Below, piece after piece: positions 12,330 through 56,486 of a stretch of 64,000 bases of DNA. Position 1 is the stretch's first letter; every line of letters starts with the position of its first letter. The notes under the pieces were generated by a model. The model searched no databases. It saw only the letters and a list, made by a program, of their open reading frames with translations, and was not told the DNA's origin. The stretch is taken from assembly GCF_900199405.1 (NCBI RefSeq), contig NZ_LT963430.1, positions 992,001 to 1,056,000 of the forward strand, read 5' to 3'. Origin of the DNA: Beduinella massiliensis. GTDB taxonomy: Bacteria; Bacillota; Clostridia; Christensenellales; Aristaeellaceae. The position numbers and the translations under genes were made by a program.

Positions 12330-12470
12330 AGAAGGACTGCCGCACGGCAGTCCTTCTGGCTATCGGCAAAGTCGATGGCCTCAGCCTGCCGAAGAACCCT
12401 GCTTTCAGGAAGCGAGAAAGCAGGGTTCTTCGACAAGCTAGGGCGCGCGCCGCATTTGCGGCGCGCGCCC
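12330..12470. repeat. Cluster of three long inverted repeats with a partial copy of the modular repeat family
   Basis: Three perfect hairpins lie between convergent genes: 12330-12357 (AGAAGGACTGCCG stem), 12391-12431 (16-bp stem, 9-base loop) and 12441-12470 (GGGCGCGCGCCGC stem). Between the first two is GGCTATCGGCAAAGTCGA followed by TGGCC, nearly the palindromic end module found at 26.3 and 56.4 kb. The first and third hairpins could terminate transcription, although neither has a strong T-run. Confidence 0.7.
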
Positions 12471-24765: not shown

Positions 24766-25435
24766 AGCCTTTACTTCCCTGCTTTCCCGATGGCCGGACG
24801 GCGAGCTCAGCCCCGGCGAGGAGCAGGCGATGCGCGAGCACGCCGCCAAGTGCCCCGCGTGCGCCAAAATGCTTCTCGCGATGGAGGAGATGCACCGGGA
24901 ATTTCAGGGGATGAACGACGAGATCGAGGTGCCCGCGGACTTTGCGGAGGGCTGGCGGCGGCAGGTGCGCGCCGATGCCTTCAGGCGAAAGCGGGGCCGC
25001 GCGCGCTCCCTCGTTCAGGGCGCGGCGGCAGCGGCGGCGGCGGTCATGGTGCTCCTTGGCGGAACGGCTCTGTGGCGCGCGGGGCGCCTGCCCATCGCCT
25101 ACCCCGCCGCCCCGGAGGGCGTGGAGCGGGTGCAGAGCCTGCCGGACGCGGGCGATCAGCCGAACGAGGCCGCCGCGCTGAAAGACGCGCCGGACGAGGA
25201 CGCCGTGCCCCAAATGCCGATGCTCTCGCGCATGGCGCCGGGCGACGCGGCGCAGGGCGCGCCCCTCCCCGAACCGGAGGAGGCACAGGCGGAGGGGGCG
25301 AGGCCGCGCGCGTTTGTGCAGGACCTCGCGGCCTTTGCGGGAATCGTCCTTCCCTGGGCGCTGGGCGCGCTTGCCTTTGCAGGACTTGCCGGGATGATCC
25401 TTCGCCTGATCAGGCGGAACAAGAGAAAGGAATGA
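24755..25435 (+). CDS. Anti-sigma factor with N-terminal zinc finger and membrane segments
   Basis: A 226-residue protein. GTG 24755 overlaps the sigma gene and follows GGGGGAAAAG. Near residue 30 is REHAAKCPAC, the HxxxCxxC zinc motif of anti-sigma factors that clamp ECF sigma. One membrane helix lies near residue 90 (AAAAAAVMVLLGGTAL) and another near 200 (IVLPWALGALAFAGLAGMIL), with an acidic linker between. A second TM in an anti-sigma factor suggests sensing at the membrane. The signal is unknown. Confidence 0.87.
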   Translation: MDCEAFTSLLSRWPDGELSPGEEQAMREHAAKCPACAKMLLAMEEMHREFQGMNDEIEVPADFAEGWRRQVRADAFRRKRGRARSLVQGAAAAAAAVMVLLGGTALWRAGRLPIAYPAAPEGVERVQSLPDAGDQPNEAAALKDAPDEDAVPQMPMLSRMAPGDAAQGAPLPEPEEAQAEGARPRAFVQDLAAFAGIVLPWALGALAFAGLAGMILRLIRRNKRKE

Positions 25436-25440
25436 CTTCA

Positions 25441-26265
25441 ATGAAAAAGCTGCTTTCGATGGTACTGGCCCTGTCCCTCATGCTCTTCGTCGCGCTGACG
25501 GCCTGCGCGGAGGACGCGACGCCCCCCGTTTCGCTGCCCGACCCGACGCCCGAGGCCACAAACCCCTGGGACGCCCTGCTGGCCGGTGCCAAGCAGAGCG
25601 TGGATGAGCTGACCGCGGCGACGGGCACGCTCAGCGTCACGGGCAGCGCGGCGGTCACGGCCGTACCCGACCGCGCGAGCATCTCCGTGGGCGTGAGCGA
25701 AACCGCGCAGGACGTCGCGGAGGCACAGCGCAGCGCGAACGCGAAGGTGAACGCGATCCTCGACGCCGTGAAGGCGCTGGGCGTCCAGGACAACAAGATC
25801 GTCACCAGCAACTACTCGATCTACCCCCAGTCGGAGTATTCCTCCCTCAGCGGCAAGTCCACGCTCGTGGGCTATCAGGTGTCCAACACCGTCACCATCG
25901 CGCTGGAAGACTTCTCCCTGCTGGAGAGCGTGATCGACGCGGCGGTGAAGGCCGGCGCGAACGAGATGTATGGCATCAACTTCGACGTGAGCAATCGCAG
26001 CGAGCTGTACCGCGAGGCGCTGAAGAAGGCCGTCGAGGCCGCGAAGGAAAAGGCGGCGCTGCTCGCGGACGCCTCCGGCCTGCGGCTGGACGTCATCCGC
26101 GAGGTGAACGAGGTCGGCGGCATCGGCATGAGCTCGGGACGCGGCTACATGAACGCCATGGACATGGTGACCGAGGCGGCGGCGGACGCGGGCACGAGCA
26201 TTCAGGGCGGCGAGCTGACCGTCAGCGCCCAGGTGGAGATCGTCTATCAGGTGAAGAATCCGTAA
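25441..26265 (+). CDS. SIMPL-domain (DUF541) exported protein
   Basis: A 274-residue protein with a signal peptide ending in LTAC, a plausible lipobox (Cys21). A SIMPL/DUF541 domain follows from about residue 62 (LSVTGSAAVTAVPDRASISV), with VKALGVQDNKIVTSNYSIYP and EKAALLADASGLRL as usual conserved blocks. Family members are periplasmic or surface oligomers linked to envelope stress. AAAGGA precedes the ATG, 5 bases after the anti-sigma stop, so it is probably an output or accessory gene of the sigma operon. Confidence 0.88.
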   Translation: MKKLLSMVLALSLMLFVALTACAEDATPPVSLPDPTPEATNPWDALLAGAKQSVDELTAATGTLSVTGSAAVTAVPDRASISVGVSETAQDVAEAQRSANAKVNAILDAVKALGVQDNKIVTSNYSIYPQSEYSSLSGKSTLVGYQVSNTVTIALEDFSLLESVIDAAVKAGANEMYGINFDVSNRSELYREALKKAVEAAKEKAALLADASGLRLDVIREVNEVGGIGMSSGRGYMNAMDMVTEAAADAGTSIQGGELTVSAQVEIVYQVKNP

Positions 26266-26284: not shown

Positions 26285-26631
26285 AGCCTCCCCTGCCATT
26301 GGCAGGGGAGGCTGGCCATCGACAAAGTCTATGGCCTCGTGCAAAATGAATGCTCATTTTGCACGAATGTCACGGGTGATGTTTTCCTCCGCAAATGCTG
26401 GGCATTGACGTGCAGCGAGCGAAGCGAGTAGGGCCGAGGACAGCGCGGAGCGCTCCGCAGGACCGTACCCTGCGCCCTTTGGGCGCAGGGCGTCAACGGA
26501 AAACGCCCCGCCCGACCGGCAAAGCCGGTCGATACGATTTCATATGAAGGGGAAGTTTCCCCTTCATGCATCCTCTCTGACATTCCGCTACTTTGTTGAT
26601 GCGCTGCCTCCCCTGCCATTGGCAGGGGAGG
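26285..26631. repeat. Modular palindromic repeat element flanked by duplicated terminator stems
   Basis: A 26-base hairpin sequence CCTCCCCTGCC-ATT-GGCAGGGGAGG (with a leading G) occurs at 26286-26311 and again at 26606-26631; the right copy carries a TCTTTT tail. Between them lie, in order: palindrome GGCCATCGAC...ATGGCC (26314-26336), GTGCAAAATGAA...TTCATTTTGCAC-type hairpin (26339-26364), a unique ~35-base block, a ~95-base insert absent from the other copy, GACCGGCAAAGCCGGTC (26514-26530), GAAGGGGAAGTTTCCCCTTC (26547-26566), and ACTTTGTTGAT as a terminal inverted repeat. The same module order recurs, inverted, at 56.2 kb. Confidence 0.85.
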
Positions 26632-26651
26632 TCTTTTGACGTTCCCGCCCT

Positions 26652-27407
26652 TTACGCCGCCTGAATCCGCGAGAGCATCTCCTCGCAGAAGGCGGCGCTT
26701 TCCTTTTCCTCGGGCGCATTCAGGGGCGCGCCCGCGTACCACGAGAGCGCGGGGCGCACGACGCCCTGCCAGCGCGGCAGGGCGTCAAGCGCCCATCGCC
26801 CGCCCGCCTGCTTGGACAGGACGTCCCCCGTCTGAAGGTATGCCAGCGCGCGGCAGAGGTTGAGCACGACGTAGGCGTAATTCTCCCGCACGTCCTCGCG
26901 GGCGCTTCCGACGTCCAGCAGGACGCTGTCCAGATAGTCCGCGCGGGGCACGGGCGAAAAGACCTCCGCGATGGGCGCGCCGCAAAGCACGAGGCCCGCC
27001 GCGCGGAGCACGGTGAAGTGCGCCGCGAGATCCCTGTCCGTCCGGCCCTCCGTGTCGCAGAGCGCGAGCGGGTCCGCCCGCCAGCGGCCGATCCAGTCGT
27101 TTGAAAAGTGCAGCTCGTAGGGCGTGGGGTAGACGAAGGGGCGGCAGGCGCATTCGAGCACGACGCTCATCTCCAGCCCCTTCGGCGGGGAATCCGGCAG
27201 CAGCGCAACGAGCGCGTCCAGCAGGCGCAGCTTGGTTTCGGCCGCCAGCGGCCGCCGGACGACGGCGATGAAGTCCACGTCGCTGCGCGCCCATTCAAAG
27301 CAGCCGAAGGCGAGCGAGCCGTGCACGTAGAGCCCGACGAGGTTTTCGCCGAGCGCGTCGGTGTACAGGCTTTTCAAGGAATCGAGCAGATACGTGATGC
27401 GCTGCAT
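26652..27407 (-). CDS. Nucleotidyltransferase, aminoglycoside adenylyltransferase-like (DUF4111)
   Basis: A 251-residue protein of the ANT(9)/AadA-like group. The nucleotidyltransferase signature is GLYVHGSLAFGCFEWARSDVDF (GS...SDVDF carries the metal aspartates) near residues 25-45, and the C-terminal ~120 residues match the DUF4111 helical domain (REDVRENYAYVVLNLCRALAYL, KQAGGRWALDALP). AGGAGG precedes the ATG by 7 bases. Aminoglycoside modification is possible but unproved; many homologues have no known substrate. It sits downstream of the modular repeat, convergent with the sigma operon. Confidence 0.85.
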   Translation of the reverse strand: MQRITYLLDSLKSLYTDALGENLVGLYVHGSLAFGCFEWARSDVDFIAVVRRPLAAETKLRLLDALVALLPDSPPKGLEMSVVLECACRPFVYPTPYELHFSNDWIGRWRADPLALCDTEGRTDRDLAAHFTVLRAAGLVLCGAPIAEVFSPVPRADYLDSVLLDVGSAREDVRENYAYVVLNLCRALAYLQTGDVLSKQAGGRWALDALPRWQGVVRPALSWYAGAPLNAPEEKESAAFCEEMLSRIQAA

Positions 27408-48552: not shown

Positions 48553-48896
48553 GGGGGTGTACTGGTTTCGACGGGGATCTGGAGATGAGGTAAGCGAGCC
48601 GTGGACCCTGGCCACGTTAAAACGGGGAATTAAACATTAACTGACAATAGCGAATACGCTTTCGCGGCTTAATGCCGCGCGTCGGCCCAGGGGCCCCGTC
48701 CCCTTGGAATCCGGCGTCAATTGACGGGCAATGAATCCGCCTAAGCTTTGCCGCGAGATTCACATGATGAAGCTACCGAGGCCGCAAGCCTGCCTATGGG
48801 CGTGCGGCGGGGGGAATCCTAAATTATAGGCTGCGCTCGGAGAAAATCTCTTTGAAGGGTTTTCGGACAGGAGTTCGATTCTCCTCACCTCCACCA
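48553..48896 (+). ncRNA. ssrA: tmRNA (SsrA)
   Basis: The 5' end GGGGGTG (before TACTGGTTTCGACGGGG, the tmRNA hallmark) pairs with CACCTCC before the CCA, and GGAGTTCGATTCTCC forms the tRNA-like T arm. The resume frame at 48643-48672 encodes a tag DNSEYAFAA with stop TAA; tags ending AA mark products for ClpXP. The mature length is about 344 bases. An intact 3' end is directly followed by AT-richer mobile DNA, consistent with its use as an integration site. Confidence 0.95.
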
Positions 48897-56207: not shown

Positions 56208-56486
56208 AGGGCGGGGGAGAGCGCTAAGGCTTCCCCGCCCTCAGACTATCAACAAAGTATCGTCTTGTAAAAGGGGATGCATGAAGGGGAAGCTTCCCCT
56301 TCATATGGAATCGTATCGACCGGCTTTGCCGGTCGGGCGGGGCGTTTTCCGTAGTCAAATGCGTAGCATTTGCGGAGGAAAACATCACCCGTGACATTCG
56401 TGCAAAATGAATCTTCATTTTGCACGAGGCCATCGACTGTGTCGATGGCCAGAGGGCGGGGGAGAGCGCTAAGGCTTCCCCGCCCT
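56208..56486. repeat. Modular palindromic repeat element, inverted copy, with 34-base flanking duplication
   Basis: The same 34 bases (AGGGCGGGG...CCCCGCCCT) lie at 56208-56241 and 56453-56486, the latter followed by TTTTT. The 211-base core reads, in reverse relative to the 26.3-kb copy: ATCAACAAAGT end, GAAGGGGAAG-CTTCCCCTTC (56283-56302), GACCGGC..GCCGGTC (56318-56334), the conserved ~35-base block, GTGCAAAATGAA..TTCATTTTGCAC (56400-56425) and GGCCATCGAC...GTCGATGGCC (56428-56450). The two cores match almost throughout. Confidence 0.9.

Follow-up and report, generated by a model that had tools for sequence, protein, structure and literature searches.

The window analysed here is a stretch of 64,000 nt lying within a 4.18-Mb genome (G000), and positions are given in window coordinates unless G000:C3 is stated. 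At 26.3 kb two convergent genes face each other across a short intergenic space (Table 1). Between them the palindrome CCTCCCCTGCCATTGGCAGGGGAGG, which forms a perfect stem of 12 bp with a 1-nt loop, is present twice in direct orientation, the two copies being separated by a core of 295 bp. Lying between the upstream SIMPL/DUF541 gene and the convergent AadA_C-domain gene, the hairpin has the position of a terminator. The 25-mer is found at these two sites only in the 4.18-Mb genome, even when up to 2 mismatches are allowed. The original prediction was of a 26-base hairpin on both sides of a core of about 290 bases; the duplicated palindrome and the core are clearly there, while the repeat is 25 nt in length. 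For the leading G that made up the 26th base, the best reading is a chance match at the left copy and, at the right copy, the final base of the element. A T-tail had been noted on the right hairpin only, and indeed the tract TCTTTTG follows the right copy, with none after the left.

The core had also been described as a string of palindromes with imperfect terminal repeats, and it is seen to be a chain of hairpins bounded by imperfect inverted repeats reaching 17 nt (CTGGCCATCGACAAAGT / CAGCGCATCAACAAAGT). A terminal hairpin at 26314-26336 and a second hairpin are followed by a long TTTTCC/GGAAAA stem that encloses a nested module of about 90 bp, after which come CGACCGGCAAAGCCGGTCG and then ATGAAGGGG/CCCCTTCAT. 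Folded as single-stranded DNA the core gives z = -6.45, far better than 200 shuffled sequences. Comparison with the Rfam models gave no match at the element. Elsewhere in the window a tmRNA gene is located at 48553-48896 (Rfam RF00023, 183 bits).

Table 1. Positions of genes, elements and repeats at the two insertions in the window
Feature	Position	Strand	Basis or remark
Upstream gene, SIMPL/DUF541 domain protein; its terminator is the presumed target	24790-26265	+	Pfam PF04402, 186 bits
Left terminator palindrome, 25 nt (putative target-site duplication)	26287-26311	+	Exact direct repeat of 26607-26631; pair unique in genome
Element (probable non-autonomous IS1182-family MITE), 295 bp including nested module	26312-26606	+	Aligned copies elsewhere in genome; matching terminal repeats in IS1182
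Left terminal inverted repeat CTGGCCATCGACAAAGT, forming hairpin 26314-26336 together with the bases that follow	26312-26328	+	14/17 to CAGACCATCAACAAAGT
Internal hairpin TCGTGCAAAATGA/TCATTTTGCACGA	26337-26366	+	Present in most copies
Nested palindromic module, ~90 bp, in place of ~6 nt in the usual 201-212-bp form	26406-26495	+	
Conserved stem B (CGACCGGCAAAGCCGGTCG), flanked by conserved CCCCGCCC and GATACGATT	26513-26531	+	Related modules in 19/50 family genera sampled
Internal hairpin ATGAAGGGGAA/TTCCCCTTCAT	26544-26567	+	
Right terminal inverted repeat (reverse complement CAGCGCATCAACAAAGT)	26590-26606	+	15/17 to CAGACCATCAACAAAGT
Right terminator palindrome copy, then T-rich tract 26632-26638; presumed stop signal of upstream gene	26607-26631	+	
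Convergent downstream gene, AadA_C domain	26652-27407	-	Pfam PF13427, 88 bits
Putative 34-nt target duplication, right end of second copy	56208-56241	-	Exact repeat of 56453-56486
Second copy of element, 211 bp, without nested module	56242-56452	-	
Putative 34-nt target duplication, left end of second copy	56453-56486	-	Exact repeat of 56208-56241

A Dispersed Family of Short Elements

Searched against the whole genome, the element gave 85 matching pieces at about 40 loci, of which 40 were fetched. The scored set comprises 40 of 70 candidates from a first look, and the copy number may therefore be higher. The typical element is 201-212 bp long, and the copy at 26.3 kb is larger by virtue of its nested module. 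The copies are short and dispersed, have terminal inverted repeats of 17 bp and contain no transposase gene, as expected of MITEs.

The nested repeat of about 90 bp (GCGAGCGAAGCGAG...GGGCGCAGGGC) occurs in whole or variant form inside a few other copies (L032, L033, L034 and L051), L032 having two related inserts of this type, and stands alone once (L064, G000:C3:1974557). The window also contains a short palindromic element at 12356-12440 with IS1182-like ends (CAGCCTGCCGAAGAACCC / CTAGCTTGTCGAAGAACCC). It adjoins a left-end fragment, CTGGCTATCGGCAAAGTCGATGGCC, sits between two different terminator-like hairpins, and is probably a minimal or remnant element.

Flanking Repeats of the Element Copies

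Are the hairpins at 26.3 kb part of the element, or do they belong to the site? For 29 near-full copies we aligned the 90 nt on the left to the 90 nt on the right, using 812 cross-paired flanks as a control. In 21 of the 29 the score exceeded the 99th percentile of the cross-paired flanks, and the 20 copies that passed a stricter score of at least 32 were used for the analyses of the footprint. Their flanking repeats are 16-39 nt in length, locus-specific and often exact, and correspond mostly to terminators at gene ends, with no match between flanks of different copies when cross-paired. Nine of the 29 copies lack a convincing pair. Core copies without flanking duplications had been named as a finding that would speak against the prediction; 20 of the 29 are duplicated, and about a third have no recognizable pair.

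The duplicated hairpin is thus confirmed as real, and is not the result of chance, given some 40 occurrences of the element and, at 20 of the 29 near-full copies, a flanking repeat peculiar to that copy. These data also bear upon the idea that hairpin, core and hairpin move together as a single unit. The hairpins at 26.3 kb do look like part of one symmetrical structure. However, the hairpins differ from copy to copy and match only their own partner, and the 25-mer is absent elsewhere in the genome. A unit carrying its own hairpins is excluded because the flanking sequence is locus-specific, and we regard this explanation as exceedingly improbable.

The ends of the repeats are strongly self-complementary: in 18 of the 20 repeats, five or more of the last six bases at either end can pair with the opposite end, compared with 6.75% of random stretches from the same flanks. 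The 8 nt following the right copy contain on average 4.85 T, and the 8 nt preceding the left copy 3.45 A, against a background of 2.04. Such outer tails are expected if a single terminator with its tails had been split by the element. The length of the duplication correlates weakly with that of the stem (r = 0.27) when stems are found by a simple palindrome detector that misses bulged stems, and the end-complementarity test, for which no stem detection is needed, was adopted after this weak value had been seen. The proposal that duplication and stem are of equal length draws upon that test and a reading of the repeats, rather than upon a correlation. It had been predicted that the element enters a Rho-independent terminator and duplicates its stem, and the data bear this out: the hairpins differ from site to site, the duplication is direct, and the T-rich tract is found once, on the outer side.

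Sites lacking the element were sought in related genomes. The orthologous locus of a genome of the same genus (G025) has a single hairpin and lacks the element, although the downstream neighbor differs, and at one site from another genus (g25) the relatives have a single hairpin or none. Core-less relatives with two hairpins, which would have contradicted the prediction, were not seen; at the orthologous loci in the same genus and in g25 there was at most a single hairpin. The same-genus genomes, genus g25, Streptococcus satellite phages and the plasmids examined yielded no near-identical empty site.

Insertion Sequences with the Same Ends

The terminal repeats of full-length IS1182-family insertion sequences are of the CAGACCATCAACAAAGT type, in common with the element, and the IS1182-type transposases (PF13751) of these genomes lie in elements that have these ends and leave the footprint described above. 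L191, an IS of 1478 bp, has ends CAGACCATCTTCAAA / CAGACCATCGGCAAA and a perfect hairpin repeat of 32 nt; its transposase reading frame is broken by one stop. L193, of 1486 bp, lies between two copies of AAACCACCCGTCAAACGGGTGGTTT, and its protein scores 415 bits against NF033551 (cut-off 270), L194 also being above the cut-off.

Among 66 IS1182 loci, namely those from named Firmicutes genomes with enough flanking sequence, the flank repeat score was at least 36 at 37, where the 99th percentile of cross-pairs is 28; these 37 include one artefact of N's (L272), two loci that are apparently one insertion (L223 and L224) and one on the same contig as L193 (L206). About 30 of the 37 repeats are palindromic at their ends. 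Clear duplications are found, among others, in Claveliimonas bilis, Oscillibacter, Flavonifractor and Clostridium neonatale, and a Sutcliffiella plasmid has an exact IS1182 repeat of 30 nt. Several IS1182 loci without a repeat adjoin two hairpins that differ from each other, as would be expected after recombination between copies, or decay.

In G000 itself we found no intact transposase with the ends of the element, the one example being a decayed IS1182 relic (L113, G000:C3:1642438) with ends, CAGACCATTAACA / CAGATGATCAACAAA, that agree with those of the element and adjoin hairpins. Its closest relative among the transposases compared is L190, and ends of the CARACCAT type are common to L191, L190 and the relic. 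We infer that an ancestor of L113 mobilized the element, and that the mobilizer, of the same kind as this relic, has since been lost or has decayed. IS1182 copies with GGGGCCGTTGCACAAA ends were considered as the likely mobilizer and rejected, as their ends differ and they have no repeat. The group of G000 insertions with these ends (L109-L112; G000:C3:3420795, 3772268, 1635336 and 2075172) has a terminal hairpin of its own and is located at terminators, apparently without duplication, resembling IS1272 replacement.

IS1272, whose transposase is of this family too, eliminates the stem-loop into which it inserts (PMC5678879, PMC4923244), raising the question of whether the target hairpin has been lost here too, the flanking hairpins being unrelated neighbors. 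The better-preserved IS1182 copies of G000 lack a repeat, and the loci abutting two different hairpins would also agree with replacement. Yet exact or near-exact duplicated palindromes are found at most of the MITE copies and at the 37 IS1182 loci, making replacement a very unlikely account. An event of the IS1272 type, with loss of the stem-loop and no duplication, was tried as a description of the insertion and rejected, since a palindrome is present on both sides.

Related Elements in Other Genera

A query of 212 bp detected related modules in 50 of 200 genomes of the family, spread over 19 of 50 genera. Elements of about 300 bp that share the left terminal hairpin occur in genera g7 and g12, where they lie between duplicated terminator hairpins. 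Genus g25 has a third type of element, of about 210-337 bp with ends CAGACCATCAACAAA / CAGCGTATCGACAAA and the same footprint; its complete copies have mostly perfect or near-perfect repeats, including perfect ones of 26-34 nt. An element of about 54 bp (L161, G173:C50) consists of little but inverted ends, CAGACCATCAACAAACCTCC...GGAGGTCTGTTGATGGTCTG, and is situated between two different hairpins.

Palindromes are prone to slippage. A hairpin might therefore have been copied by replication slippage or template switching, after insertion beside it with an ordinary short duplication. Against this, in almost all independent cases the duplication stops at the ends of the element, which holds across several genera and for full-size and miniature elements alike, and we give this possibility very little weight.

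A structured module, comprising GGAATG, stem A, CCCCGCCC, stem B, GATACGATTnCAGTC and stem C in that order (window 26381-26567), was observed in 19 of the 50 genera sampled. It corresponds to no Rfam family. In an alignment of 28 modules (A2; from L075-L103, L162 and L169), base changes on both sides of stem B are found at 3 of its 7 pairs. Recognizable element ends adjoin only some examples, and the right-end motif, sought beside the conserved module, was present at 2 of 27 loci; the module therefore probably extends beyond the elements studied here.

Discussion

The core at 26.3 kb is very probably an IS1182-family MITE that has a palindrome as its target, the whole hairpin being the target-site duplication; this reading comes from comparison of sequences. 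The original prediction had held that a duplication of 26 bases is much longer than the 2-14 bases of an ordinary IS or MITE. It is indeed unusually long, and palindromic, and the element nevertheless appears to be a MITE, of the IS1182 family. In the mechanism that we propose, an IS1182 transposase (DDE transposon family) acting in trans would recognize the ends of about 17 bp, and insertion would occur at palindromes, mostly the hairpins of Rho-independent terminators. The strands would be transferred at opposite feet of the palindrome, and gap repair would leave one whole hairpin on each side. As the outer flanks, A-rich on the left and T-rich on the right, would each keep one hairpin, termination is predicted to be preserved, and presumably persists at the filled sites.

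What the transposase recognizes may be the hairpin in extruded form, as a cruciform or four-way junction. Alternatively, the enzyme might cut ordinary duplex DNA with a long stagger, palindromes being favored through contacts with a dimeric protein and no cruciform being extruded. The footprint by itself is silent on DNA structure, and dimeric recognition should likewise lead to palindromic targets. However, the targets have no sequence in common, vary from 16 to 39 nt, and end near the foot of the stem, and we consider such a cut unlikely.

Several aspects of this behavior have precedents. ISCbo5 (IS1182) is described as inserting at gene-end hairpins that are likely to act as transcription stop signals; the text consulted makes no mention of hairpin duplication (PMC3098183). 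ISCbo5 and ISEfa7 have a transposase of the same family (NF033551, PF13751), many Firmicutes members of which share the end type and hairpin duplication here, whereas the present element has no transposase gene. The copies of ISEfa7 examined in Enterococcus had no detectable matching pair. IS1272 and TnSha1, also of the IS1182 family, target stem-loops, often terminators, with no sequence preference; in contrast to the element described here, they delete or replace the stem-loop and make no target duplication (PMC5678879, PMC4923244). Duplication of a whole stem-loop has been drawn as a hypothetical pathway (pathway b, Fig 13), in which both 3′ ends are joined at the 5′ feet of the cruciform (PMC5678879), and our footprint, as read from the sequences, would fit that pathway. 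Palindromic targets of the IS1182 family are mentioned by Siguier et al., without detail as cited in PMC5678879.

The pneumococcal repeats SPRITE, BOX and RUP (PMC3049150) are likewise small, dispersed and palindromic, and SPRITE is terminator-like and found near gene ends. However, SPRITE itself resembles a terminator, whereas the present element appears to enter and duplicate that of the host. Typical bacterial MITEs (PMC10969869) are similarly short, with terminal inverted repeats, strong secondary structure and flanking direct repeats, and differ in that the direct repeats here are palindromic and 16-39 nt in length and the element is not AT-rich. In the papers searched we found neither hairpin-duplicating IS1182 MITEs nor a survey of the footprint. 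Both appear to be undocumented there, although part may be recorded in ISfinder or in subscription reviews; the targeting of terminators by IS1182 elements is already known.

Target-site duplications are usually short, and fixed by the spacing of the two cuts made by the transposase. A palindromic duplication of variable size points to a transposase that reads structure. On balance we lean toward the view that a large branch of the IS1182 family, together with its MITEs, chooses targets by the shape of the DNA, such that the opposite feet of a cruciform are attacked, the length of the duplication is that of the hairpin, and terminators are spared. Any hairpin that can be extruded could then be a target. 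The insertions described here provide many independent footprints for a stem-loop duplication pathway hitherto only drawn as a possibility, and their occurrence across many Firmicutes makes hairpin-targeted transposition testable. Such insertion would offer a natural route by which elements may spread into the ends of genes at low cost to the host.
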